From Saccoglossus kowalevskii (lineage: Eukaryota; Hemichordata; Enteropneusta; Harrimaniidae): a stretch of DNA of 64,000 nucleotides. Shown here in pieces: positions 1,315-64,000 of this stretch. Position 1 is the first letter of the stretch; every line of letters begins with the position of its first letter. Under the pieces are notes generated by a model. It was given only the letters and a program-made list of their open reading frames with translations, had not been told where the DNA came from and did not search any database. The translations under genes and the position numbers were made by a program. Location of the stretch: positions 1-64,000 of the forward strand of contig NW_003115315.1 of the NCBI RefSeq assembly GCF_000003605.2, in the 5' to 3' direction.

Positions 1315-1479
1315 ATACTTACCTGGCGTAGGGGTTAACCGTGATCATGGAGGCGGTTCCCTCAGGGAGAGGCCCTCCCATTGCACTTCGGCTGGGCTGA
1401 CACCTGCGATCGCCCCAAATGTGGGCGACTCGGGCGCATAATTTATGTTAGTGGGGGACTGCGTTCGCGCTATCCCCTG
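1315..1479 (+). ncRNA. U1: U1 snRNA, copy 1 (consensus)
   Basis: U1 is the RNA core of the U1 snRNP, which pairs with 5' splice sites at the start of spliceosome assembly. Seen here: 5' end ATACTTACCTG (pairs with CAGGTAAGT); stem-loop I with loop GATCATGGAG at nt 29-38 (U1-70K site); stem-loop II with ATTGCAC (U1A site) at nt 66-72; stem-loop III around CCAAATGTGG; Sm site AATTT at nt 126-130; stem-loop IV closed by TTCG at nt 150-153. Length is 165 nt against 164 in human, and stem-loop IV is nearly identical to human. The loop of stem-loop I differs from the usual GAUCANGAAG by an A to G change at nt 36. About 23 copies in the window match this consensus by eye. Spacer after this copy has a 4-bp TGAG duplication and AATTCC in place of AGATCC. 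Confidence 0.97.
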
Positions 1480-1492
1480 ATAATGAAACTAA

Positions 1493-1501
1493 AAAATCAG
1501 A
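1493..1501 (+). terminator. snRNA 3' box; type example
   Basis: AAAATCAGA matches the AAARNNAGA core of the metazoan snRNA 3' box and starts 14 nt after the U1 3' end. Integrator-dependent 3' processing is the known role of this signal. It is conserved after nearly all copies; altered after copy 25 (T in the purine position) and copy 43 (an inserted G). Confidence 0.7.
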
Positions 1502-2106
1502 TCTAATTTCTTACATTGGTCATCTCTAGTGAGAAATCGCGCAGATCCGCCTCATGTGAGTGAGAACAATGTGGGTTTCCTAACTAGATTTTCAGGGAAA
1601 TGTCGACCATTGATCAAGTTATTATTATTTATTAAAAATGGACAGGTTTTCGATGTACTAAGCAATGAAATAATCGAGAGTTGGCCAATTCCACAGGTCA
1701 CCTGTACTTGTCGAGTACTGACGCCCTCACACGCCGCGTTTCGCATAAAAGAAAACCCATTGGTTGACAGCAACCATATGATTTGGGGGGCTACGGACGC
1801 TGATAGGATGATCGCTGGCATGGGATAAGTGCCGCTTGGTGTGCGTGCATAATCTCTCTCTCTCTACCCAGAATCCTTTGTGGCCAAGTTTGTCGCGAAT
1901 TTTCAGTATATACAACGCATTTCGTGGAGTCAAATGTCCATGAGCGACCATTAAAATCATGTGGTTAATATTTAAGTCATGACATTACCAGTCTATTGTG
2001 TGCAACTACTAGTTAGAATACGATTTTTTCCAGATGCTCTTGGCACTCACCGTCGTGTCTGTTTTGTTTCATTCCATGGGGTACTCCGTTGTTGACAGTC
2101 AATGGC

Positions 2107-2271
2107 ATACTTACCTGGCGTAGGGGTTAACCGTGATCATGGAGGCGGTTCCCTCAGGGAGAGGCCCTCCCATTGCACTTCGGCTGGGCTGACACCTGCG
2201 ATCGCCCCAAATGTGGGCGACTCGGGCGCATAATTTATGTTAGTGGGGGACTGCGTTCGCGCTATCCCCTG
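2107..2271 (+). ncRNA. U1: U1 snRNA, copy 2 (consensus)
   Basis: Consensus gene. Its spacer carries two rare changes (CAACTG in the palindrome, ATATGC near the distal element) shared only with the spacer of copy 33, some 29.7 kb away. Confidence 0.97.
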
Positions 2272-2894
2272 ATAATGAAACTAAAAAATCAGATCTAATT
2301 TCTTACATTGGTCATCTCTAGTGAGAAATCGCGCAGATCCGCCTCATGTGAGAACAATGTGGGTTTCCTAACTAGATTTTCAGGGAAATGTCGACCATTG
2401 ATCAAGTTATTATTATTTATTAAAAATGGACAGGTTTTCGATGTACTAAGCAATGAAATAATCGAGAGTTGGCCAGATCCACAGGTCAACTGTACTTGTC
2501 GAGTACTGACGCCCTCACACGCCGCGTTTCGCATAAAAGAAAACCCATTGGTTGACAGCAACCATATGATTTGGGGGGCTACGGACGCTGATAGGATGAT
2601 CGCTGGCATGGGATAAGTGCCGCTTGGTGTGCGTGCATAATCTCTCTCTCTCTACCCAGAATCCTTTGTGGCCAAGTTTGTCGCGAATTTTCAGTATATG
2701 CAACGCATTTCGTGGAGTCAAATGTCCATGAGCGACCATTAAAATCATGTGGTTAATATTTAAGTCATGACATTACCAGTCTATTGTGTGCAACTACTAG
2801 TTAGAATACGATTTTTTCCAGATGCTCTTGGCACTCACCGTCGTGTCTGTTTTGTTTCATTCCATGGGGTACTCCGTTGTTGACAGTCAATGGC

Positions 2895-3059
2895 ATACTT
2901 ACCTGGCGTAGGGGTTAACCGTGATCATGGAGGCGGTTCCCTCAGGGAGAGGCCCTCCCATTGCACTTCGGCTGGGCTGACACCTGCGATCGCCCCAAAT
3001 GTGGGCGACTCGGGCGCATAATTTATGTTAGTGGGGGACTGCGTTCGCGCTATCCCCTG
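2895..3059 (+). ncRNA. U1: U1 snRNA, copy 3 (consensus)
   Basis: Consensus gene. The spacer has a 4-bp duplication (CATGCATG) near 3536, also found after copy 19. Confidence 0.97.
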
Positions 3060-3687
3060 ATAATGAAACTAAAAAATCAGATCTAATTTCTTACATTGGT
3101 CATCTCTAGTGAGAAATCGCGCAGATCCGCCTCATGTGAGAACAATGTGGGTTTCCTAACTAGATTTTCAGGGAAATGTCGACCATTGATCAAGTTATTA
3201 TTATTTATTAAAAATGGACAGGTTTTCGATGTACTAAGCAATGAAATAATCGAGAGTTGGCCAGATCCACAGGTCACCTGTACTTGTCGAGTACTGACGC
3301 CCTCACACGCCGCGTTTCGCATAAAAGAAAACCCATTGGTTGACAGCAACCATATGATTTGGGGGGCTACGGACGCTGATAGGATGATCGCTGGCATGGG
3401 ATTAGTGCCGCTTGGTGTGCGTGCATAATCTCTCTCTCTCTCTACCCAGAATCCTTTGTGGCCAAGTTTGTCGCGAATTTTCAGTATATACAACGCATTT
3501 CGTGGAGTCAAATGTCCATGAGCGACCATTAAAATCATGCATGTGGTTAATATTTAAGTCATGACATTACCAGTCTATTGTGTGCAACTACTAGTTAGAA
3601 TACGATTTTTTCCAGATGCTCTTGGCACTCACCGTCGTGTCTGTTTTGTTTCATTCCATGGGGTACTCCGTTGTGACAGTCAATGGC

Positions 3688-3851
3688 ATACTTACCTGGC
3701 GTAGGGGTTAACCGTGATCATGGAGGCGGTTCCCTCAGGGAGAGGCCCTCCCATTGCACTTCGGCTGGGCTGACACCTGCGATCGCCCCAAATGTGGGCG
3801 ACTCGGGCGCATAATTTATGTTAGTGGGGACTGCGTTCGCGCTATCCCCTG
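3688..3851 (+). ncRNA. U1: U1 snRNA, copy 4 (164 nt)
   Basis: One G fewer in the G-run of stem-loop IV (nt 139-143); the stem can still pair. The promoter lacks one T at about -14. The same G loss and the same spacer variant (GCAAAAAAG) recur in copy 65. Confidence 0.95.
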
Positions 3852-4474
3852 ATAATGAAACTAAAAAATCAGATCTAATTTCTTACATTGGTCATCTCTA
3901 GTGAGAAATCGCGCAGATCCGCCTCATGTGAGAACAATGTGGGTTTCCTAACTAGATTTTCAGGGAAATGTCGACCATTGATCAAGTTATTATTATTTAT
4001 TAAAAATGGACAGGTTTTCGATGTACTAAGCAATGAAATAATCGAGAGTTGGCCAGATCCACAGGTCACCTGTACTTGTCGAGTACTGACGCCCTCACAC
4101 GCCGCGTTTCGCAAAAAAGAAAACCCATTGGTTGACAGCAACCATATGATTTGGGGGGCTACGGACGCTGATAGGATGATCGCTGGCATGGGATTAGTGC
4201 CGCTTGGTGTGCGTGCATAATCTCTCTCTCTCTACCCAGAATCCTTTGTGGCCAAGTTTGTCGCGAATTTTCAGTATATACAACGCATTTCGTGGAGTCA
4301 AATGTCCATGAGCGACCATTAAAATCATGTGGTTAATATTTAAGTCATGACATTACCAGTCTATTGTGTGCAACTACTAGTTAGAATACGATTTTTTCCA
4401 GATGCTCTTGGCACTCACCGTCGTGTCTGTTTTGTTTCATTCCATGGGGTACTCCGTTGTTGACAGTCAATGGC

Positions 4475-4639
4475 ATACTTACCTGGCGTAGGGGTTAACC
4501 GTGATCATGGAGGCGGTTCCCTCAGGGAGAGGCCCTCCCATTGCACTTCGGCTGGGCTGACACCTGCGATCGCCCCAAATGTGGGCGACTCGGGCGCATA
4601 ATTTATGTTAGTGGGGGACTGCGTTCGCGCTATCCCCTG
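4475..4639 (+). ncRNA. U1: U1 snRNA, copy 5 (consensus)
   Basis: Consensus gene. Two single-base losses lie in the spacer near 5107 and 5151. Confidence 0.97.
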
Positions 4640-5260
4640 ATAATGAAACTAAAAAATCAGATCTAATTTCTTACATTGGTCATCTCTAGTGAGAAATCGC
4701 GCAGATCCGCCTCATGTGAGAACAATGTGGGTTTCCTAACTAGATTTTCAGGGAAATGTCGACCATTGATCAAGTTATTATTATTTATTAAAAATGGACA
4801 GGTTTTCGATGTACTAAGCAATGAAATAATCGAGAGTTGGCCAGATCCACAGGTCACCTGTACTTGTCGAGTACTGACGCCCTCACACGCCGCGTTTCGC
4901 ATAAAAGAAAACCCATTGGTTGACAGCAACCATATGATTTGGGGGGCTACGGACGCTGATAGGATGATCGCTGGCATGGGATAAGTGCCGCTTGGTGTGC
5001 GTGCATAATCTCTCTCTCTCTACCCAGAATCCTTTGTGGCCAAGTTTGTCGCGAATTTTCAGTATATACAACGCATTTCGTGGAGTCAAATGTCCATGAG
5101 CGACCATAAAATCATGTGGTTAATATTTAAGTCATGACATTACCAGTCTATGTGTGCAACTGCTAGTTAGAATACGATTTTTTCCAGATGCTCTTGGCAC
5201 TCACCGTCGTGTCTGTTTTGTTTCATTCCATGGGGTACTCCGTTGTTGACAGTCAATGGC

Positions 5261-5425
5261 ATACTTACCTGGCGTAGGGGTTAACCGTGATCATGGAGAC
5301 GGTTCCCTCAGGGAGAGGCCCTCCCATTGCACTTCGGCTGTGCTGACACCTGCGATCGCCCCAAATGTGGGCGACTCGGGCGCATAATTTATGTTAGTGG
5401 AGGACTGCGTTCGCGCTATCCCCTG
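5261..5425 (+). ncRNA. U1: U1 snRNA, copy 6 (G39A, G81T, G141A)
   Basis: G39A turns the U-G pair closing stem-loop I into U-A. G81T removes the C60-G81 pair of stem-loop II. G141A weakens stem-loop IV and is shared with copy 68. Spacer has seven Gs in the G-run, as after copies 16, 37 and 67. Confidence 0.95.
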
Positions 5426-6051
5426 ATAATGAAACTAAAAAATCAGATCTAATTTCTTACATTGGTCATCTCTAGTGAGAAATCGCGCAGATCCGCCTCA
5501 TGTGAGAACAATGTGGGTTTCCTAACTAGATTTTCAGGGAAATGTCGACCATTGATCAAGTTATTATTATTTATTAAAAATGGACAGGTTTTCGATGTAC
5601 TAAGCAATGAAATAATCGAGAGTTGGCCAGATCCACAGGTCACCTGTACTTGTCGAGTACTGACGCCCTCACACGCCGCGTTTCGCATAAAAGAAAACCC
5701 ATTGGTTGACAGCAACCATATGATTTGGGGGGGCTACGGACGCTGATAGGATGATCGCTGGCATGGGATTAGGGCCGCTTGGTGTGCGTGCATAATCTCT
5801 CTCTCTCTCTACCCAGAATCCTTTGTGGCCAAGTTTGTCGCGAATTTTCAGTATATACAACGCATTTCGTGGAGTCAAATGTCCATGAGCGACCATTAAA
5901 ATCATGTGGTTAATATTTAAGTCATGACATTACCAGTCTATTGTGTGCAACTACTAGTTAGAATACGATTTTTTCCAGATGCTCTTGGCACTCACCGTCG
6001 TGTCTGTTTTGTTTCATTCCATGGGGTACTCCGTTGTTGACAGTCAATGGC

Positions 6052-6216
6052 ATACTTACCTGGCGTAGGGGTTAACCGTGATCATGGAGGCGGTTCCCTC
6101 AGGGAGAGGCCCTCCCATTGCACTTCGGCTGGGCTGACACCTGCGATCGCCCCAAATGTGGGCGACTCGGGCGCATAATTTATGTTAGTGGGGGACTGCG
6201 TTCGCGCTATCCCCTG
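6052..6216 (+). ncRNA. U1: U1 snRNA, copy 7 (consensus)
   Basis: Consensus gene; one private C to T in the spacer near 6470. Confidence 0.97.
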
Positions 6217-6841
6217 ATAATGAAACTAAAAAATCAGATCTAATTTCTTACATTGGTCATCTCTAGTGAGAAATCGCGCAGATCCGCCTCATGTGAGAAC
6301 AATGTGGGTTTCCTAACTAGATTTTCAGGGAAATGTCGACCATTGATCAAGTTATTATTATTTATTAAAAATGGACAGGTTTTCGATGTACTAAGCAATG
6401 AAATAATCGAGAGTTGGCCAGATCCACAGGTCACCTGTACTTGTCGAGTACTGACGCCCTCACACGCCGTGTTTCGCATAAAAGAAAACCCATTGGTTGA
6501 CAGCAACCATATGATTTGGGGGGCTACGGACGCTGATAGGATGATCGCTGGCATGGGATTAGTGCCGCTTGGTGTGCGTGCATAATCTCTCTCTCTCTCT
6601 ACCCAGAATCCTTTGTGGCCAAGTTTGTCGCGAATTTTCAGTATATACAACGCATTTCGTGGAGTCAAATGTCCATGAGCGACCATTAAAATCATGTGGT
6701 TAATATTTAAGTCATGACATTACCAGTCTATTGTGTGCAACTACTAGTTAGAATACGATTTTTTCCAGATGCTCTTGGCACTCACCGTCGTGTCTGTTTT
6801 GTTTCATTCCATGGGGTACTCCGTTGTTGACAGTCAATGGC

Positions 6842-7006
6842 ATACTTACCTGGCGTAGGGGTTAACCGTGATCATGGAGGCGGTTCCCTCAGGGAGAGGC
6901 CCTCCCATTGCACTTCGGCTGTGCTGACACCTGCGATCACCCCAAATGTGGGCGACTCGGGCGCATAATTTATGTTAGTGGGGGACTGCGTTCGCGCTAT
7001 CCCCTG
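6842..7006 (+). ncRNA. U1: U1 snRNA, copy 8 (G81T, G98A)
   Basis: G81T with G98A in the stem-loop III region; the same pair occurs in copies 20, 54 and 59. Its spacer variant GAGTAATG is shared with copy 9 next door. Confidence 0.96.
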
Positions 7007-7633
7007 ATAATGAAACTAAAAAATCAGATCTAATTTCTTACATTGGTCATCTCTAGTGAGAAATCGCGCAGATCCGCCTCATGTGAGAACAATGTGGGTT
7101 TCCTAACTAGATTTTCAGGGAAATGTCGACCATTGATCAAGTTATTATTATTTATTAAAAATGGACAGGTTTTCGATGTACTAAGCAATGAAATAATCGA
7201 GAGTTGGCCAGATCCACAGGTCACCTGTACTTGTCGAGTAATGACGCCCTCACACGCCGCGTTTCGCATAAAAGAAAACCCATTGGTTGACAGCAACCAT
7301 ATGATTTGGGGGGCTACGGACGCTGATAGGATGATCGCTGGCATGGGATTAGGGCCGCTTGGTGTGCGTGCATAATCTCTCTCTCTCTCTCTACCCAGAA
7401 TCCTTTGTGGCCAAGTTTGTCGCGAATTTTCAGTATATACAACGCATTTCGTGGAGTCAAATGTCCATGAGCGACCATTAAAATCATGTGGTTAATATTT
7501 AAGTCATGACATTACCAGTCTATTGTGTGCAACTACTAGTTAGAATACGATTTTTTCCAGATGCTCTTGGCACTCACCGTCGTGTCTGTTTTGTTTCATT
7601 CCATGGGGTACTCCGTTGTTGACAGTCAATGGC

Positions 7634-7798
7634 ATACTTACCTGGCGTAGGGGTTAACCGTGATCATGGAGGCGGTTCCCTCAGGGAGAGGCCCTCCCAT
7701 TGCACTTCGGCTGGGCTGACAACTGCGATCGCCCCAAATGTGGGCGACTCGGGCGCATAATTTATGTTAGTGGGGGACTGCGTTCGCGCTATCCCCTG
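7634..7798 (+). ncRNA. U1: U1 snRNA, copy 9 (C89A)
   Basis: Single change C89A, also in copy 29. Confidence 0.96.
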
Positions 7799-8423
7799 AT
7801 AATGAAACTAAAAAATCAGATCTAATTTCTTACATTGGTCATCTCTAGTGAGAAATCGCGCAGATCCGCCTCATGTGAGAACAATGTGGGTTTCCTAACT
7901 AGATTTTCAGGGAAATGTCGACCATTGATCAAGTTATTATTATTTATTAAAAATGGACAGGTTTTCGATGTACTAAGCAATGAAATAATCGAGAGTTGGC
8001 CAGATCCACAGGTCACCTGTACTTGTCGAGTAATGACGCCCTCACACGCCGCGTTTCGCATAAAAGAAAACCCATTGGTTGACAGCAACCATATGATTTG
8101 GGGGGCTACGGACGCTGATAGGATGATCGCTGGCATGGGATTAGGGCCGCTTGGTGTGCGTGCATAATCTCTCTCTCTCTCTACCCAGAATCCTTTGTGG
8201 CCAAGTTTGTCGCGAATTTTCAGTATATACAACGCATTTCGTGGAGTCAAATGTCCATGAGCGACCATTAAAATCATGTGGTTAATATTTAAGTCATGAC
8301 ATTACCAGTCTATTGTGTGCAACTACTAGTTAGAATACGATTTTTTCCAGATGCTCTTGGCACTCACCGTCGTGTCTGTTTTGTTTCATTCCATGGGGTA
8401 CTCCGTTGTTGACAGTCAATGGC

Positions 8424-8589
8424 ATACTTACCTGGCGTAGGGGTTAACCGTGATCATGGAGGCGGTTCCCTCAGGGAGAGGCCCTCCCATTGCACTTCGG
8501 CTGGGCTGACACCTGCGATCGCCCCAAATGTGGGCGACTCGGGCGCATAATTTATGTTAGTGGGGGGACTGCGTTCGCGCTATCCCCTG
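8424..8589 (+). ncRNA. U1: U1 snRNA, copy 10 (166 nt)
   Basis: One extra G in the stem-loop IV G-run. Spacer has the TGAG duplication. Last intact U1 before the central LINE. Confidence 0.95.
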
Positions 8590-8976
8590 ATAATGAAACT
8601 AAAAAATCAGATCTAATTTCTTACATTGGTCATCTCTAGTGAGAAATCGCGCAGATCCGCCTCATGTGAGTGAGAACAATGTGGGTTTCCTAACTAGATT
8701 TTCAGGGAAATGTCGACCATTGATCAAGTTATTATTATTTATTAAAAATGGACAGGTTTTCGATGTACTAAGCAATGAAATAATCGAGAGTTGGCCAGAT
8801 CCACAGGTCACCTGTACTTGTCGAGTACTGACGCCCTCACACGCCGCGTTTCGCATAAAAGAAAACCCATTGGTTGACAGCAACCATATGATTTGGGGGG
8901 CTACGGACGCTGATAGGATGATCGCTGGCATGGGATTAGTGCCGCTTGGTGTGCGTGCATAATCTCTCTCTCTCTC

Positions 8977-9218
8977 TACCCAGAATCCTTTGTGGCCAAG
9001 TTTGTCGCGAATTTTCAGTATATACAACGCATTTCGTGGAGTCAAATGTCCATGAGCGACCATTAAAATCATGTGGTTAATATTTAAGTCATGACATTAC
9101 CAGTCTATTGTGTGCAACTACTAGTTAGAATACGATTTTTTCCAGATGCTCTTGGCACTCACCGTCGTGTCTGTTTTGTTTCATTCCATGGGGTACTCCG
9201 TTGTTGACAGTCAATGGC
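8977..9218 (+). promoter_or_regulatory. Intact U1 promoter upstream of the central LINE
   Basis: The distal Staf-type site (8977-8994) and the PSE with TCACC at 9159-9163 are unchanged from those of working units. The start site at 9219 would give an RNA opening with 32 nt of U1 and running into the LINE. This is the obvious promoter for the element. Confidence 0.7.
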
Positions 9219-9250
9219 ATACTTACCTGGCGTAGGGGTTAACCGTGATC
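9219..9250 (+). pseudogene. U1: U1 snRNA 5' fragment (nt 1-32) at the LINE 5' junction
   Basis: Holds the 5'-splice-site-pairing sequence and the 5' arm of stem-loop I up to GATC of the loop. The LINE begins at 9251. Compared with the 3' junction at 560/561, nt 33-36 of U1 (ATGG) are absent and there is no target-site duplication. Confidence 0.95.
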
Positions 9251-9659
9251 TCTAGGCCTGCTTTCTGCTGTTGGTATAACCATTGTCCAGCTTCCTGCTA
9301 CTGGTGACTTGACTGCTGATCAACCCTTATCCTTGCTGCTTCTCTTTGGTGAGTAATTGCTTGATTGTTTCTGGTTACTGTATTTGTTGTTGTCTCCCCG
9401 GGTGTGTGCCATCTTTGGCCCCCGGGGAAAGTCCGGAAGATGCCGTGAAGAGAAGACACTGCGAAGCGCTCCTGAAGAAACCAGCTCCTGTCTCGTTCTG
9501 CTCTGCTTGGTGAGTCTTACCCATTATTTGTCTGCTTGTCGCTAGTTTTCTACTTGGCGTCCTGTGTATCCTGTGTGGTTGGTGTCACCTATCTGGAGGA
9601 CTGGCCTTTGCGCCGTTTCCCAAATCCTCCCCCGATTGTTGATCACTGCTCTGACGAGA
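9251..9659 (+). other. LINE 5' UTR with possible splice sites
   Basis: No ATG-started frame of note; the frame at 9357-9545 opens with TTG. Two strong donor-like sites, TTG|GTGAGT, lie at 9349 and 9510, and a pyrimidine-rich acceptor-like TAG ends at 9545. An intron 9349-9545 (197 bp) would be possible; 9510-9545 alone is too short. Both donors pair in part with the U1 5' end kept just upstream. In the copy at the right edge, the segment ending exactly at the first donor is duplicated. Confidence 0.55.
9349..9354 (+). promoter_or_regulatory. Candidate 5' splice site GTGAGT in LINE leader
   Basis: G|GTGAGTAA pairs over eight bases (one wobble) with the U1 5' end. The matching site at 62883 is the exact right border of the 138-bp duplication. 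The borders suggest use as a donor; there is no RNA evidence. Confidence 0.4.
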
Positions 9660-11180
9660 ATGAGGCGAGATTCCTCTATCTCGGTCACGTTGACTGAACC
9701 TGTCAAACCAGTTGACCTGTTCAAAAGAATTAAAGAGTTAGGTATTAATATTGACGACTTGACGTGTGTCCAGCCTCTGCCTGGTAACAAGTATGATATA
9801 ACATTCACTTCATTCAGCAAAAGAAGAGAAAATGAACGGAAATTTGAAAAGATGCATGGCGTAGAAGATTGCAAAAATTTTACTGAGTACACGATCGTCA
9901 CCCTTTTCCATATCCCATCTGAGACCAACGACAACGAAATTCGGTACACTCTTAGCCAATATGGCGAGGTCTTGGCCTCCCGCTTCTGTACCTACCACTT
10001 CGCTCCAAAAGTGTTCAATGGTAACCGCCAATATAAAATGAAATTGAGATCTAACATTCCATCTGCGTTACGTATCTCCGGACGTAATGTTTGGGTTTCA
10101 TACATGGGACAAGTGAGAACATGCAACAGATGCCAGCAATCAGGTCACTTATCCAAAGACTGCAAAACCACCATTTGCAACAGATGCCTTGAGCATGGCC
10201 ATTCGACAAATGACTGTGACAAAACCATTGTGTGCACTATCTGCCACAAACCCGGTCACATCGCTCGGAATTGCAAACTCTCCTTTGCTAACCAAGTCTC
10301 TAAAAGTCCCTCATGGGCAAATGCGCCACCAATGTCCTCTAGCTGCAAATGTGGAAACTTCGTTGCAGCCTTGGACATCAAGTGCATGTACTGCTCAGAT
10401 CTGGTCCCTCCAAAAGAAGCAACTATAGAATCATGTACCAAGTGCTCCAAAAAATCCGAATCCCCATATGTAGAAGTCGCATGCCAGGACTGTTTACCCA
10501 CCATTGAAGATATGGTCATAGAAAATACCACCGGAGAAAACACAACCGCCAACACAACCACCAACCCTCCGTCTGAGTCTCCTGTTCATGCTCCCACGGC
10601 CTCTTCTAGGTTACCAGTTACCAAATCAAACGAACCATCTGTTACCCAAAAACAGACACCCAAGATCCCAGCCAACACGGAGAATATGACCAATGAAATG
10701 GATCAACCAACACCAGCCCACAGTAGTGGTGAAAGCTCTCAATCATCATATGAGACTGCCATAGTCACACTGCCGCAGCCAGCTACAGCCCACCCTGGTC
10801 CAGAAAACACGAAACCTCCAACAGAAGATAGAAAAAGACACTTCTCAGATGATGGTCAAACAGATGAAAGTGCAAAAAAAATGAAACCACCGGAAGTGAC
10901 CAAACTTCATGAAATTGTTACTAAAAATGCTAAGTTTACTTGCAACCAGTTCGCCAGCATTGGTTGCGAATTCATTGCTGAATCCTTTGCCAGCCTGCGT
11001 TCCCACTGTAAGAAGGAACATGGAGAGAGGGGAGTGAAATTATTTTGTCCGGTGTCAGCCTGCAAATTTTCCTCCGGCACAACATTGGCTTGGACAAAAC
11101 ATGTACACACAACACATACACACTTCTTATCGCAGCAGACGATAGAAAGTTTACAGCAGTGTCTCACCCTTAACCAGTAA
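9660..11180 (+). CDS. LINE ORF1 protein (gag-like, CCHC and C2H2 zinc fingers)
   Basis: RNA-binding ORF1 protein expected to coat the LINE RNA. The open frame begins further up, but the first in-frame ATG is at 9660, giving 506 residues starting MRRDSSISVT. Residues 1-150 form a conserved-looking N-terminal region. Three CX2CX4HX4C knuckles follow at about 155-168, 173-186 and 192-205. Two Cys clusters (CXCX10CX2C at 229-245, CX2CX12CX2C at 259-278) may be small zinc ribbons. A Ser/Thr/Pro-rich stretch of about 130 residues leads to two C2H2-like fingers (C428, C436, H449, H454 and C463, C468, H481, H486). C2H2 fingers are what R2-type LINEs use to bind target DNA, so a U1-gene-binding role is an attractive inference. 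It ends four bases before the ORF2 ATG. The frame is intact. Confidence 0.85.
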   Translation: MRRDSSISVTLTEPVKPVDLFKRIKELGINIDDLTCVQPLPGNKYDITFTSFSKRRENERKFEKMHGVEDCKNFTEYTIVTLFHIPSETNDNEIRYTLSQYGEVLASRFCTYHFAPKVFNGNRQYKMKLRSNIPSALRISGRNVWVSYMGQVRTCNRCQQSGHLSKDCKTTICNRCLEHGHSTNDCDKTIVCTICHKPGHIARNCKLSFANQVSKSPSWANAPPMSSSCKCGNFVAALDIKCMYCSDLVPPKEATIESCTKCSKKSESPYVEVACQDCLPTIEDMVIENTTGENTTANTTTNPPSESPVHAPTASSRLPVTKSNEPSVTQKQTPKIPANTENMTNEMDQPTPAHSSGESSQSSYETAIVTLPQPATAHPGPENTKPPTEDRKRHFSDDGQTDESAKKMKPPEVTKLHEIVTKNAKFTCNQFASIGCEFIAESFASLRSHCKKEHGERGVKLFCPVSACKFSSGTTLAWTKHVHTTHTHFLSQQTIESLQQCLTLNQ

Positions 11181-11184
11181 TATC

Positions 11185-14100
11185 ATGACTACCATCGCCT
11201 CTATAAACATCCAGGGACTACGCAACCAAGCCTCCAGACTCGCCTTCTTTAACCACTGCCATAGCGCCAAATTCGACCTTATCTGCATCCAGGAAACGTA
11301 TATGAGCTCTTGTGATGATGCGGAGCAATGGGAGATGGAATGGGGTGGACGCATCCTGTATAGCCTTGGGTCTAAACACTCAAGAGGCGTGGCCATCCTT
11401 TTCTCTCCAGCCTTCCAAGCGAAGTACAATGAAGTTCATACGGATTCTGAAGGCAGAGTTGTTTCTGTCTCCATCACGCATGGCACCACTTCCTTTCGTT
11501 TGTGTTCTGTCTATGCCCCCAATAATCCTCAGGCTCGCATTAGCTTCTTCGGTTCTCTTGCTCAATATTTGCCCCCAAACAAAGAGACAATCCTATGTGG
11601 TGATTTCAATTGTGTCAGTGATCCACTGCTTGACAAACTTGGTGGACTTGATAGCCCAGAAGTCCGGGCCGGCTCTGATGTCCTTAATTCCATCTGCTCT
11701 GACTATAATATCACTGATCACTGGCGCATTTCCCATCCCTCAACGAAGGAATTCACCTGGAGGAGTGCCAACAACGCTTCTGCATCTAGAATTGACAAGT
11801 TTCTGACCCCCAAAAACATGACCACTGAATCTAAAATCATTCCTTGTCCATTCTCTGACCATGAATTCATCACCTGTGTACTCAAGATGCCAACATCCAT
11901 CGCAAGAGGTCGAGGTGTATGGAAGTGTAATATCTCAACCCTCCAAGACCCTGTAGTCAGGAGTAGCATAAGAAAACACATCCAACAATGGAAGACCCTT
12001 AAACCTGCCTTTGACTCTATTTTGGACTGGTGGGACACAGTCAAGGCTCGGGCCAAATCACTAATCACCACGCACTCAAAACGCATATCGCAAGACAATA
12101 GAGCAAAGCTGAACAAACTTCTTCATCATTTTAAAGAACTGACACATAAGCTTAACTCGGGAGACCGTACTCGGGCTACCCTGGGATCCTACCACATTAC
12201 CAAAAAGAAAATTCATGACTTACAGCTTAGGAAACTGGAAGGGGCGAAAATCCGCTCGCGAGCACAACTTATTCAAGAGCAGGAAAGATGGTCAAGCGTC
12301 TTTTTAACTACAGAACGCAGACGTGGCAAGAGCAAGCTGGTCTCCAGTGTTATCAATGCTGAAGGCAAAGTGGTGTCAGATCCGGATGAAGTCCCATCTG
12401 TCTTTGCCCAATTTTATAGTAAATTATATACATCACAACCAAACTTAGACTGCAAGGAGCAAGATTTCTTCCTGGGCAAGCTCACCAGGTCTTTCTCTGA
12501 CATGCAAAAACAACAACTTGACAAACCAATTATACAGAAAGAGTTACATGATGCTCTGAAGAACATGAAAGATAATAAGACCCCGGGCTTGGATGGTCTT
12601 CCCAAAGAATTTTATATGCTCTTCTGGGAAGATCTAGGAGAAGATTTCACCCAAGTTATTAATATCGCCATGACACAAGGTCAACTATCCACCTCCCAGC
12701 GTCAGGGTCTAATCACCCTGGTGAATAAGCCTTCACCCCAAGAAGGTAATCATCACGAAGCAGTGCGCCCTGGGGATAAAAGACCTATATCCCTTCTTAA
12801 CGTTGACTACAAAATCGTCACGAAAGCTCTCGCCACCCGTTTATATTCTGTTCTTCCATCTGTTATCGGGCCTTTCCAAACCTGTGGTGTTGCTGGGCGG
12901 TCAATTCACCAAAACGTGCGCATCCTGAGAGATTTCACCACTTTTGCTAATAGCAGAGGCTTTGGCAGTGCTATCGTTTCTTTGGATCAGAAAAAAGCCT
13001 TTGATAGGGTTGAGTGGAAATTCCTATATAAAACCCTCATGCAGCTGAATTGCGGCTCACTCTTCTGTTCTTACATCAAGACGATCTACAATGATATCAT
13101 GAGTTCGGTCACCGTCAATGGGCATGTGTCCCCTGCCTTTTCTTTATCTAGGGGTGTCCGTCAGGGCTGCCCACTCTCACCTTTGCTGTACATCATTTTC
13201 ATGGAGCCGCTTGCAGCAGCTGTGCAGAGTTCAACCGAAATCAAAGGTGTGAAACTACCTGGATCAAAAACTGAATGCAAACTTCTCCAATATGCAGATG
13301 ACTCCACAGCTCTGGTTACTGATAATAAGTCGTTCAAGGCTCTGTTCCAACTTTTTGAGAGATTTGGTACTGCTTCGGGCTCTGAACTCAATATGACGAA
13401 ATGCAAAGGTCTCTTCCTAGGAAGCTGGAGAAACCGTTCAGACAAGCCTTATAACATTGACTGGACGGGGGTCAGAATCAAAATCAATGGCTTCTGGTTT
13501 GGGAGCATCGATATGAGTGCCGTCAATTGGGACAGTTGCGTCAAGAAGTTTAAAACCACTCTTACTCAATGGGAGAAGAGACGTCTCTCAATGGTCGGAA
13601 AAGTCATCGTCATAAACAACCTCGTTACCGCACCACTTTGGTACATTGCACACATCTACAATATTCCCAACTCTGTCATTCAGACGCTCACTCCTCTGGT
13701 TTTCAACTTCATGTGGTCTGGGAAGAAAGAATTTATAAAGCGGGAAACTTTCTATCTGCCTCTACAAGAAGGGGGATTGGGCCTGGTTAACATCCAAATG
13801 AAGGCTGATGCCATTTTTATTCAAAGTTCCTGTAGTTCTATGGTGTCGGATCTCCCAGATCGCTTCTTCCCTCTGTCCTGGGCGAATAAAAACCTTCTAG
13901 CAATTCTGGCTCTGCCTTGGTCTAACCTGTATCCGCACTTTTCTGACCCACCACAATGGCATGCTCACCTCAGAAAGTCTTGTCAACAAAACCATGCGAC
14001 ACTCTGCACATCCAACTGGACGATCATATCTACACAATCTGTGTATTCCACTCTCCTTGAGAAACTATCGCATACCCCACACGTCATCTTGAAAGCTCCC

Positions 14101-14223
14101 CACATGAACTGGAGTAAAATTTTCGCATCGTGCCACAGTCCTCTTCTGGATAACCTGTTGAAGGAGCTGGCCTGGAAAATCGTTCACAAGGCTCTGAAGA
14201 CAAAGAGCACCCTATATCATTAA
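11185..14223 (+). CDS. LINE ORF2: AP endonuclease and reverse transcriptase, 3'-truncated
   Basis: Nicks target DNA and reverse transcribes the LINE RNA from the nick. N-terminal APE domain, residues 1-235: N8, E37 (IQET), Y110 (VYAPN), D140 and N142 (GDFN), D204 (RIDKF), S224-D225-H226 (SDH), so the catalytic set is complete. Reverse transcriptase about 440-770: GLDGLPKEFY, RPISLLN, D601 in LDQKKAFDRV, RQGCPLSPLLY, Y703-A-D-D706. The thumb/connection region follows (KVIVINNL, EGGLGL) to residue 1012. Relatives run to roughly 1200-1300 residues with a C-terminal Cys/His zinc domain; this frame ends just before that domain. Its TAA (14221-14223) is the first triplet of U1 spacer, not an ORF2 stop. 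TAA-tatc-ATG separates it from ORF1, suggesting termination-reinitiation. Confidence 0.9.
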   Translation: MTTIASINIQGLRNQASRLAFFNHCHSAKFDLICIQETYMSSCDDAEQWEMEWGGRILYSLGSKHSRGVAILFSPAFQAKYNEVHTDSEGRVVSVSITHGTTSFRLCSVYAPNNPQARISFFGSLAQYLPPNKETILCGDFNCVSDPLLDKLGGLDSPEVRAGSDVLNSICSDYNITDHWRISHPSTKEFTWRSANNASASRIDKFLTPKNMTTESKIIPCPFSDHEFITCVLKMPTSIARGRGVWKCNISTLQDPVVRSSIRKHIQQWKTLKPAFDSILDWWDTVKARAKSLITTHSKRISQDNRAKLNKLLHHFKELTHKLNSGDRTRATLGSYHITKKKIHDLQLRKLEGAKIRSRAQLIQEQERWSSVFLTTERRRGKSKLVSSVINAEGKVVSDPDEVPSVFAQFYSKLYTSQPNLDCKEQDFFLGKLTRSFSDMQKQQLDKPIIQKELHDALKNMKDNKTPGLDGLPKEFYMLFWEDLGEDFTQVINIAMTQGQLSTSQRQGLITLVNKPSPQEGNHHEAVRPGDKRPISLLNVDYKIVTKALATRLYSVLPSVIGPFQTCGVAGRSIHQNVRILRDFTTFANSRGFGSAIVSLDQKKAFDRVEWKFLYKTLMQLNCGSLFCSYIKTIYNDIMSSVTVNGHVSPAFSLSRGVRQGCPLSPLLYIIFMEPLAAAVQSSTEIKGVKLPGSKTECKLLQYADDSTALVTDNKSFKALFQLFERFGTASGSELNMTKCKGLFLGSWRNRSDKPYNIDWTGVRIKINGFWFGSIDMSAVNWDSCVKKFKTTLTQWEKRRLSMVGKVIVINNLVTAPLWYIAHIYNIPNSVIQTLTPLVFNFMWSGKKEFIKRETFYLPLQEGGLGLVNIQMKADAIFIQSSCSSMVSDLPDRFFPLSWANKNLLAILALPWSNLYPHFSDPPQWHAHLRKSCQQNHATLCTSNWTIISTQSVYSTLLEKLSHTPHVILKAPHMNWSKIFASCHSPLLDNLLKELAWKIVHKALKTKSTLYH

Positions 14224-14361
14224 TATTTAAGTCATGACATTACCAGTCTATTGTGTGCAACTACTAGTTAGAATACGATTTTTTCCAGATGCTCTTGGCA
14301 CTCACCGTCGTGTCTGTTTTGTTTCATTCCATGGGGTACTCCGTTGTTGACAGTCAATGGC

Positions 14362-14526
14362 ATACTTACCTGGCGTAGGGGTTAACTGTGATCATGGAGG
14401 CGGTTCCCTCAGGGAGAGGCCCTCCCATTGCACTTCGGCTGGGCTGACACCTGCGATCGCCCCAAATGTGGGCGACTCGGGCGCATAATTTATGTTAGTG
14501 GGGGACTGCGTTCGCGCTATCCCCTG
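14362..14526 (+). ncRNA. U1: U1 snRNA, copy 11 (C26T), distal element lost
   Basis: C26T makes a U-G wobble in stem-loop I. Only 141 bp of the normal upstream region remain because the LINE ORF2 joins at 14220/14221. The PSE is kept (TCACC at 14302), but the CT tract and distal element are gone, so expression is probably weak. Confidence 0.95.
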
Positions 14527-62614: not shown

Positions 62615-62646
62615 ATACTTACCTGGCGTAGGGGTTAACCGTGATC
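62615..62646 (+). pseudogene. U1: U1 snRNA 5' fragment (nt 1-32), first of the duplicated pair
   Basis: Consensus U1 nt 1-32, joined to LINE leader at 62647, the same junction as 9250/9251. Confidence 0.95.
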
Positions 62647-62744
62647 TCTAGGCCTGCTTTCTGCTGTTGGTATAACCATTGTCCAGCTTCCTGCTACTGG
62701 TGACTTGACTGCTGATCAACCCTTATCCTTGCTGCTTCTCTTTG
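62647..62744 (+). mobile_element. First 98 bp of LINE leader, duplicated
   Basis: Matches the start of the central LINE leader and stops exactly where the donor-like GTGAGT would begin; the second copy of promoter tail and U1 follows. Confidence 0.9.
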
Positions 62745-62752
62745 TCAATGGC

Positions 62753-62784
62753 ATACTTACCTGGCGTAGGGGTTAACCGTGATC
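62753..62784 (+). pseudogene. U1: U1 snRNA 5' fragment (nt 1-32), second of the duplicated pair
   Basis: Preceded only by the 8-bp promoter tail, so it has no PSE of its own at -60; it would be an internal part of a longer leader RNA. Confidence 0.95.
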
Positions 62785-64000
62785 TCTAGGCCTGCTTTCT
62801 GCTGTTGGTATAACCATTGTCCAGCTTCCTGCTACTGGTGACTTGACTGCTGATCAACCCTTATCCTTGCTGCTTCTCTTTGGTGAGTAATTGCTTGATT
62901 GTTTCTGGTTACTGTATTTGTTGTTGTCTCCCCGGGTGTGTGCCATCTTTGGCCCCCGGGGAAAGTCCGGAAGCTGCCGTGAAGAGAAGACACTGCGAAG
63001 CGCTCCTGAAGAAACCAGCTCCTGTCTCGTTCTGCTCTGCTTGGTGAGTCTTACCCATTTTTTGTCTGCTTGTCGCTAGTTTTCTACTTGGCGTCCTGTG
63101 TATCCTGTGTGGTTGGTGTCACCTATCTGGAGGACTGGCCTTTGCGCCGTTTCCCAAATCCTCCCCCGATTGTTGATCACTGCTCTGACGAGAATGAGGC
63201 GAGATTCCTCTATCTCGGTCACGTTGACTGAACCTGTCAAACCAGTTGACCTGTTCAAAAGAATTAAAGAGTTAGGTATTAATATTGACGACTTGACGTG
63301 TGTCCAGCCTCTGCCTGGTAACAAGTATGATATAACATTCACTTCATTCAGCAAAAGAAGAGAAAATGAACGGAAATTTGAAAAGATGCATGGCGTAGAA
63401 GATTGCAAAAATTTTACTGAGTACACGATCGTCACCCTTTTCCATATCCCATCTGAGACCAACGACAACGAAATTCGGTACACTCTTAGCCAATATGGCG
63501 AGGTCTTGGCCTCCCGCTTCTGTACCTACCACTTCGCTCCAAAAGTGTTCAATGGTAACCGCCAATATAAAATGAAATTGAGATCTAACATTCCATCTGC
63601 GTTACGTATCTCCGGACGTAATGTTTGGGTTTCATACATGGGACAAGTGAGAACATGCAACAGATGCCAGCAATCAGGTCACTTATCCAAAGACTGCAAA
63701 ACCACCATTTGCAACAGATGCCTTGAGCATGGCCATTCGACAAATGACTGTGACAAAACCATTGTGTGCACTATCTGCCACAAACCCGGTCACATCGCTC
63801 GGAATTGCAAAATCTCCTTTGCTAACCAAGTCTCTAAAAGTCCCTCATGGGCAAATGCGCCACCAATGTCCTCTAGCTGCAAATGTGGAAACTTCGTTGC
63901 AGCCTTGGACATCAAGTGCATGTACTGCTCAGATCTGGTCCCTCCAAAAGAAGCAACTATAGAATCATGTACCAAGTGCTCCAAAAAATCCGAATCCCCA
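62785..64000 (+). mobile_element. U1-specific LINE, 5' part, running off the window
   Basis: Co-linear with 9251-10466 with no indels seen and three substitutions that I found (two in the leader, one in ORF1). It has the same leader, the same donor-like sites (62883 and 63044) and the same ORF1 start. The variants in the U1 unit before it (copy 71) differ from those before the central LINE (copy 10), which favours separate insertion or later shuffling over a simple block duplication. Confidence 0.92.
63194..64000 (+). CDS. LINE ORF1 protein, N-terminal part (cut by window edge)
   Basis: First in-frame ATG at 63194, equivalent to 9660; 269 codons are visible without a stop. The three CCHC knuckles and the CXC/CX2C cluster that follows are intact, and the second Cys cluster is just entered. 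One amino-acid difference from the central copy lies right after the third knuckle (KLSF to KISF). Confidence 0.85.
   Translation, partial: MRRDSSISVTLTEPVKPVDLFKRIKELGINIDDLTCVQPLPGNKYDITFTSFSKRRENERKFEKMHGVEDCKNFTEYTIVTLFHIPSETNDNEIRYTLSQYGEVLASRFCTYHFAPKVFNGNRQYKMKLRSNIPSALRISGRNVWVSYMGQVRTCNRCQQSGHLSKDCKTTICNRCLEHGHSTNDCDKTIVCTICHKPGHIARNCKISFANQVSKSPSWANAPPMSSSCKCGNFVAALDIKCMYCSDLVPPKEATIESCTKCSKKSESP

Follow-up and report, generated by a model that had tools for sequence, protein, structure and literature searches.

A LINE apparently specific for U1 small nuclear RNA genes, and sister families in U5 genes, in the genome of Saccoglossus kowalevskii

The stretch of DNA analysed here (the window, 64,000 nucleotides (nt) in length) comprises bases 1–64000 of contig C876 (64,796 bp) of the hemichordate Saccoglossus kowalevskii, in an assembly that was searched as a whole (572 Mb, 4,830 contigs). 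COX1, on contig C4830, is an open frame under the invertebrate mitochondrial code; a plasmid search with the mitochondrial DNA gave one weak match, to a bacterial nuoH. It consists of a tandem array of genes for U1 small nuclear RNA (snRNA), into which pieces of a long interspersed nuclear element (LINE) with two open reading frames (ORFs) and untranslated regions (UTRs) at either end are set. An Rfam search gave 72 U1 matches in the window, all of them on the + strand, whose start-to-start spacing is 783–798 bp throughout, except across a LINE-containing gap of 5143 bp and at one step of 138 bp. Because the U1 spacings are regular between 14.4 and 62.6 kb, no further LINE lies there, as had been described in an initial annotation of this DNA that reported the remainder of the array to be free of LINEs. 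The features on which the argument rests are the following.

1–560, + strand: 3' end of a LINE copy, consisting of the tail of ORF2 (with frame-breaking indels), a 3' UTR with a conserved domain, and the terminal sequence AAAACAAAAAT; 99% identical to C3935:7001-7556
561–689, + strand: remainder of a disrupted U1 gene, from nt 37 onward, with nt 33–36 (ATGG) absent (Rfam, 88.9 bits)
1315–9218, + strand: tandem intact U1 genes with spacer, unit of ~790 bp; the array resumes at 14362–62614 (Rfam matches and their spacings)
9219–9250, + strand: U1 nt 1–32, the left part of a disrupted target
9251–9659, + strand: LINE 5' UTR, 409 nt, with donor-like GTGAGT sites at LINE nt 99 and 260
9660–11180, + strand: ORF1, 506 amino acids (aa) (Pfam zf-CCHC, E 1.3e-07, two stretches at a loose threshold)
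11185–14220, + strand: ORF2, first ~1012 aa, with an endonuclease of the apurinic/apyrimidinic type (APE-type) and a reverse transcriptase (RT; YADD) (Pfam RVT_1, 2.3e-36; Exo_endo_phos, 1.5e-13)
14221–14361, + strand: rearranged joint, leading from truncated ORF2 to U1 spacer (unit position ~652) and on to intact array; C3935 stays LINE at the same point
62785–64000, + strand: second LINE copy, 5' UTR and ORF1, reaching the contig end at 64796

In the window the LINE begins directly after U1 nt 1–32 at three places (9250/9251, 62646/62647 and 62784/62785), and every other listed U1 start reads on as U1. At the 3' joint, 560/561, the LINE stops and U1 restarts at nt 37, with nt 33–36 lost. A second U1-array contig, C3935, has a 5' joint at 661/662, after U1 nt 32, and a 3' joint at 7000/7001, resuming at nt 37. 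In total, 4 of the 4 5' joints found follow U1 nt 32 and both 3' joints resume at nt 37; four bases are missing from the target and none is duplicated, and at all joints seen the U1 gene is oriented as the LINE sense strand. The initial annotation had proposed that the 5' junctions are identical and fall exactly after U1 nt 32, that the 3' junction at 560/561 resumes at nt 37, and that all are in U1 sense orientation. The first of these statements was borne out base by base, the second agreed with both the sequence and the Rfam match, and the third held at every joint. The three 5' junctions that it had listed in the window are likewise placed correctly; however, the one at 62646/62647 does not represent a separate insertion and belongs instead to a duplication of 138 bp that is described below. 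In the predicted fold of the start of the RNA, nt 29–38 of U1 form an apical loop, and the position of this loop fits the known stem-loop I; the predicted fold of U1 nt 1–50 was no better than those of shuffled sequences (z 0.73).

Joints of this kind might arise in assembly, if reads from a LINE had been misjoined to U1 repeats. Contigs do end within LINE copies, and the stretches at contig edges carry extra small indels, as in the 661-nt 5' piece of C3935 with its five gaps of one base each. However, the joints are identical to the base in two contigs, the joint at 9250 lies in mid-contig with array on both sides, and old copies elsewhere in the genome retain the same element 5' end, so that we regard an artefact as extremely unlikely.

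The window's 3' piece (1–560) and 5' piece (9251–14220) do not overlap, and the window alone therefore cannot tie them together. The copy that begins at 9251 is incomplete: it ends at 14220 within ORF2 and jumps to U1 spacer at unit position ~652. The missing part is found in C3935 (10.1 kb, opposite strand), which carries ORF2 from residue ~212, the C-terminal CCHC, the 3' UTR and the end AAAACAAAAAT, and which continues into U1 at nt 37, then through seven complete U1 genes to U1 nt 1–32 and the LINE 5' end again. The two pieces in the window therefore belong to one family, ~5.7 kb long with two ORFs. The C-terminal ~146 aa that ORF2 of the 9251 copy lacks include a CCHC knuckle, read by eye in C3935 as CPRVDC-x7-H-x4-C. 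Over 2012 nt, the second copy in the window, at 62785, is distinguished from the copy at 9251 by 3 substitutions and a single 1-nt gap. By eye, ORF1 contains three CCHC motifs and, near its C-terminus and after the knuckles, two C2H2-like motifs; a weak Pfam match to RBD_ZCCHC3_1st (E 6e-04) fell under the cut-off. ORF1 of the U1 family aligns with ORF1 of the U5-inserted relatives described below. The two C2H2-like motifs are common to both by eye, Pfam calling neither, and they are a possible DNA-reading part of the protein. The minimum-energy fold of the last 191 nt of the 3' UTR was no better than those of shuffles (z 0.81); what marks out the 3' UTR domain shared among families is therefore conservation of sequence.

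The duplication near the right end of the window involves three short features that precede the second LINE copy.

62615–62646, + strand: U1 nt 1–32 preceding a LINE stub
62647–62744, + strand: 98-nt LINE stub, part of the 138-bp duplication
62753–62784, + strand: U1 nt 1–32, for the second time

After the 98-nt stub come TCAATGGC, U1 nt 1–32 and the LINE anew, which together make up a repeat of 138 bp. The joint at 62646 is thus a duplicate, so that separate LINE copies account for two 5' joints in the window, alongside one 3' joint. The end of the stub coincides with the donor-like LINE sequence TTTG|GTGAGT (GTGAGT occurs only twice in the 4970-nt LINE copy at 9251, both times in the 5' UTR), and the resumed sequence comes after ...TTGACAG| upstream of U1. 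Judging from these edges, the duplication may have arisen by reverse transcription of a read-through RNA that had been spliced, or it may be a plain duplication with one shared G.

To ask where else the element occurs, we searched the assembly with its parts; these searches score the best candidates only, and the copy counts are lower bounds. Genome-wide, matches of at least 99% are confined to two contigs, C876 and C3935, both of which are U1 arrays. With the LINE 5' end as query there were four places at ≥99%, three of which, besides the query itself, matched at 100% and included the 98-nt stub. The ORF2 DNA query gave three matches at ≥99%, a full-length one, another covering 2.4 kb and a third of 78 nt where a contig ends, and the LINE 3' end gave two places. 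The exact 3' joint pattern occurs twice in 572 Mb, both times in U1; allowing 3 mismatches added three further hits, one of which is a U1 variant on C1617 with an intact target. For a 22-bp U1 target (≤3 mismatches) the 572 Mb contain 85 occurrences, of which 78 are on the two array contigs and 7 elsewhere; its reversed control has 0. Each of the 7 off-array targets belongs to a U1 gene, complete or partial, in which no LINE occupies the target. These results support the proposal, made in the initial annotation, that the element is a U1 specialist. That annotation had named a majority of genomic copies outside U1 genes as evidence that would speak against a specialist. This is not what is seen: the near-identical matches are found in U1 genes only, and two diverged copies lie elsewhere.

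Several of the dispersed single U1 genes (L054–L057 and L059) have a variant stem-loop I, with GATCAAGG or GATCAAAG replacing GATCATGG and the target intact; the dispersed U1 matches L057 and L058 end at nt 73 and 83.

The two diverged copies are on C3736 and C4612. The first (17755 to ~22321) is 81–84% identical in aligned DNA, with deletions; its first 410 nt are 77% identical, the value at which the LINE 5' end query detected it. The second (~695.05–696.30 kb, minus strand) is internally deleted, is made up of pieces 68–84% identical (one 28-nt piece reaching 93%), and was detected by the 5' end query through 69 nt at 80%. Having kept both LINE ends, this old relative has the shape of a non-autonomous derivative. 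The left flank of the C3736 copy, GGTTAACCATGATC, matches U1 nt 19–32 at 13 of 14 positions, the same variant being present in two of the window's U1 units, and the left flank of the C4612 copy, GGGTTTAACCGTGACC, matches U1 nt 17–32 at 14 of 16. The corresponding in-register chance figures are 1.6e-7 and 2.6e-7, on the assumption of equal base frequencies and with the extent of the match chosen after the match had been seen. The right ends are AAAAAAATAGG and CAAAAATAGGC, respectively, each followed by unrelated DNA (by eye for C3736), and by eye the bases after the 3' end are AGG or AGGC in both copies. Beyond nt 17/19–32 and 37–39/40, U1 likeness was equalled by shuffles in 2464 of 5000 and 556 of 5000 trials. 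An eroded whole U1 gene around these copies was accordingly rejected as the simple reading, the outer likeness being no better than in shuffles; the surroundings may be a cut-up U1 fragment. When the joined flanks of the C4612 copy were used to search for an empty site, they matched only their own locus and two short pieces of C455. Either the zone of target recognition spans approximately U1 nt 17–40, or the element brought short U1 ends along with it.

The diverged copies bear on whether the element favours any DNA resembling U1 over U1 genes in particular, in the manner of reptile Utopia elements with U2. Both copies lie off U1 genes and nevertheless adjoin the U1-like bases just described. 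However, both are old and broken, the U1-like bases could have come in with the element, and the present-day 22-bp targets (≤3 mismatches) are all in full or partial U1 genes. Because all present-day targets are in U1 genes, a strict and a relaxed enzyme are indistinguishable from the young copies. We consider a relaxed preference possible, though clearly the less probable case.

The near identity of the LINE copies raises a different possibility, namely that a LINE without specificity inserted once by chance in U1 and was then multiplied by unequal crossing-over. Indeed, tandem arrays exchange units, and the 138-bp duplication and the deletion at 14220 indicate that rearrangement occurs in this U1 array. 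We compared the array units that flank the insertions. Upstream of the three separate 5' joints, pairs of flanking units showed 5, 2 and 7 substitutions as well as indels, and the pair of downstream flanking units showed 6 substitutions; 150 random pairs of U1 units differ by 0–9 substitutions, with a mean of 4.5. Between copies, the LINE 5' parts show 3 substitutions over 2012 nt, 2 over 661 nt and none over 661 nt. Since the flanks vary like random units and the LINE copies are near-identical, separate insertions, rather than one insertion copied with the array, are favoured by these comparisons. One pair of flanks (A–D) is merely 2 substitutions apart, as copying would predict, but the other pairs (5, 7 and 6) are as different as random units. 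Moreover, near-identical copies outside U1 were not found among the best candidates scored in the assembly, although a non-specific LINE would be expected elsewhere too, the old off-U1 copies are bracketed by U1-like bases in register, and the U5-inserted sister families behave alike, with three joints at one base in two families. A single chance insertion is, in our view, very unlikely.

The sister families came from a search with the ORF2 protein. Among the best 45 of 1294 candidates, ORF2s that are 38–47% identical, several of them intact, cluster on three contigs, C191, C2012 and C3795. Of the 45 U5 snRNA matches listed (among the best 47 of 32,916 candidates), 44 are on the same three contigs and one is on C4724, which identifies C191, C2012 and C3795 as U5 arrays. 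We read the 3' joint directly in one copy on each of the three contigs, and in each case it is AAAAAT|CGCCTTTTAC, the target resuming with U5 nt 36 (numbered from the Rfam match, which is accurate within a base). This joint falls at the stem/loop edge of loop I, in a U5 fold that is better than those of shuffles (z -2.58). A U5 joint pattern, which presets the position of the joint and to which other positions are invisible, gave 13 hits, of which 12 fall on the three U5 contigs (5, 4 and 3) and the remaining one, a relic on C1645, lies next to a degenerate piece of U5. Its reversed control gave 0 hits, and partial U5 matches adjoin three more of the 13. The base that precedes AAAAAT is T in 8 of these hits and C in 5, as in families B and A, respectively; because the last base splits in this way, both U5 families are mixed in the arrays. 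The 5' joint was read in two copies: on C2012 it follows nt 32 and shows a single base change (CATTAATC), and on C3795 it follows nt 32 or nt 34, so about 3 bases are lost at the U5 target. All U5 joints seen are in sense, and the U1 and U5 families alike have the 3' UTR domain and an AAAAAT end. C191 further contains a copy in which a rearrangement has joined ORF1 to U5 spacer. The U5 array of C3795 reverses, with + units at 0.2–12 kb, minus units at 20–27 kb and oppositely directed LINE pieces between.

At the level of the RT, the two U5 families (A and B) are 61% identical to each other and 47–49% identical to the U1 family, whereas the U1 family and four dispersed relatives are 35–37% identical; in the wider list, dispersed ORF2 hits reach 40% over short stretches (C261). 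An RT tree (8 rows on the positions of the U1 query, midpoint-rooted, with sequences of one genome only) gave support of 100/99 for the U1 pair, 100/100 for the U5 pair and 83/86 for U1 plus U5 against the four dispersed relatives (C4632, C918, C1922 and C3294), which had been picked from the longer list of ORF2 matches. No Rfam RNA was found in the stretches fetched for the dispersed relatives (3' side, three of four, the C1922 stretch seemingly still being coding). At least 7 U2 matches are present in the genome (among the best 46 of 21,877 candidates), and none of those found is on a contig with a listed ORF2 match. Among the snRNA genes searched (U1, U2 and U5), the lineage sits in two that are in large tandem arrays. 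Judged by these sequence relationships, it appears to be a small group of LINEs specific for snRNA genes, within which the target has switched.

ORF2 aligns with human L1 ORF2p over residues 3–872 (E 9.7e-81), and with R2 in the RT region only (best E 2.7e-15), which places its affinity on the L1 side rather than the R2 side. Searches of ORF2 against viral contigs and of phage DNA gave no match. The Tx1 group, whose elements are L1-related, has as its hallmark a two-ORF layout with CCHC motifs in both ORFs. The family described here has two ORFs, CCHC knuckles in ORF1 and a C-terminal CCHC in ORF2, combines an APE-type endonuclease with an RT in ORF2, and inserts in a sequence-specific manner. 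Membership in the Tx1 group, to which the initial annotation had assigned the element, is thus plausible from the domain layout and the L1 affinity.

Taken together, these findings argue that the window contains a site-specific, APE-type, L1/Tx1-like LINE that enters U1 genes in sense, within the apical loop of their stem-loop I, and that its two nearest families inhabit tandem U5 genes; we put the probability of this reading at roughly 0.88. The U1-specific LINE then belongs to a lineage whose targets include both U1 and U5, which goes beyond what the initial annotation had proposed. Several points weigh against it. The events are few: for U1 there are two 3' joints and three 5' joints that count as separate, confined to two contigs. 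Some of these U1 joints could have been relocated by gene conversion or by recombination within the array, one pair of flanks (the 9251 copy versus C3935) being so close. No complete U1 LINE copy lies within one contig, and the U1 copies that reach ORF2 are defective or cut by a contig end, one being cut at 14220 and the one in C3935 having a frameshift that is perhaps an assembly error. On the U5 side, the 5' joints are only two and less clean than those of U1, and the grouping of U1 with U5 is moderately supported. Finally, two diverged copies lie outside U1 genes, so that specificity is not absolute or the copies on C3736 and C4612 sat in U1 fragments that have since been lost.

The positions of the joints suggest how such a LINE could insert. 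Target-primed reverse transcription is established for R2 and L1. By analogy, the ORF2 endonuclease would nick the bottom strand at U1 nt 36/37 (5'-CCGCCT^CCAT), and the 3' end of the nicked strand would prime reverse transcription from the 3' end of the LINE RNA, which carries the 3' UTR domain common to the families and ends in AAAAAU. Cleavage of the top strand would follow nt 32; because this cut would lie four bases upstream of the bottom nick, the four bases between the cuts would be lost and no target duplication would form. In the U5 counterpart, the bottom cut would fall before nt 36 and the top cut near nt 32, with a loss of 3 bases. In all joints read, the AAAAAT end of the U1 and U5 families lies directly at the presumed primer. 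What the sequences themselves show is where the joints lie and how they are oriented, which bases are missing, what is encoded and how the families are related; we infer the order of the cuts and the recognition of the RNA, and likewise that the element may be currently active.

Since all joints are in sense, an snRNA promoter lies 32 nt upstream of the LINE, and we would guess that the LINE makes use of it. An extension of this idea, which we offer as rather improbable, is that the lineage is specialised on arrayed snRNA genes as such: the element would take over the promoter, its RNA would acquire a capped leader of ~32 nt, and the homology of that leader to the target would close the 5' joint. 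The identical U1 5' joints, the U1-like left edges of the old copies and the GT-AG-like edges of the 62647 stub all fit such a leader. The U1 and U5 families and, according to the literature, also Keno and Utopia enter ~32–39 nt past the start of the gene, in unrelated sequences; if the lineage is specialised on arrays in this way, what these elements have in common may be a rule of position no less than of sequence.

The Tx1 clade comprises numerous families, often deposited without a paper. The family could therefore already be catalogued in Repbase or Dfam under a Tx1 or Keno name, with U1 or U5 given as its target, and Repbase Reports, together with most subscription papers, were outside the literature searched; however, none of the papers listed from that literature concerned a U1- or U5-specific LINE (Repbase, Dfam and non-open papers being outside its scope), and we think prior cataloguing unlikely. 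The initial annotation knew of no described U1-targeting LINE, which agrees with the literature searched and with a 2015 statement that snRNA-gene targeting had been reported only for Keno and Utopia (U2), Dada-U1 and Dada-U6 (PMC4640811). The literature consulted also included PMC8869645, PMC3706591, PMC3747384, PMC4176376, PMC5753468 and PMC11121367.

Keno, like the present family, is an APE-type LINE in an snRNA gene near its start, entering U2 at nt 37 (PMC6136364), as compared with 32/37 in U1 and 32/36 in U5. Unlike Keno, which we compared by description, the present family has its joints in U1, and none of the listed ORF2 matches is on a U2 contig. Utopia is likewise an snRNA-gene specialist, and some Utopia families also occur at short target-like sequences outside U2; the U2 sequence downstream of Utopia starts at nt 39, and the 3' flank of Keno is identical (PMC4640811). 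Utopia, however, has a restriction-like endonuclease, generally one protein and a U2 target (PMC4640811), whereas the family here is APE-type, has two ORFs and is found in U1; Tx1-clade specialists carry an APE-type endonuclease (PMC4640811). Dada-U1 is a DNA transposon with the same host gene family, U1, but with a DDE transposase, a short target duplication and another site in U1, whereas the present element has an RT and loses nt 33–36. Tx1L, Mutsu (5S) and Dewa (tRNA-Leu spacer) resemble it in being site-specific LINEs and are set apart, by their descriptions, through different targets. Human L1 resembles it in the ORF2p match over residues 3–872. Unlike L1, which is not confined to one gene and has a poly(A) end, it has a conserved 3' domain and AAAAAT.

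If this reading is correct, U1 and U5 join, as two new natural targets, the few genes into which LINEs are known to insert at a precise base. Related families with unrelated targets in one genome would make the choice and change of target by APE-type LINEs testable. Site-specific LINEs are sought for the placement of DNA at safe multicopy sites, and snRNA genes are short, highly conserved targets. On the host side, these parasites would inhabit functional loops of core splicing RNAs, namely stem-loop I of U1 and the edge of loop I of U5.

The 3' UTR domain also occurs outside the LINEs. A 60-nt stretch of it (window ~402–461) is shared, at 81–84%, with a dispersed repeat of ~0.35 kb that resembles a short interspersed nuclear element (SINE) by size. 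This repeat was found at 22 loci besides the LINE copies and C4612, and it ends in CAAAAATC, closely resembling the end of U5 family A ahead of its target. From this likeness, the SINE-like repeat may use the machinery of the U1/U5 LINE lineage.

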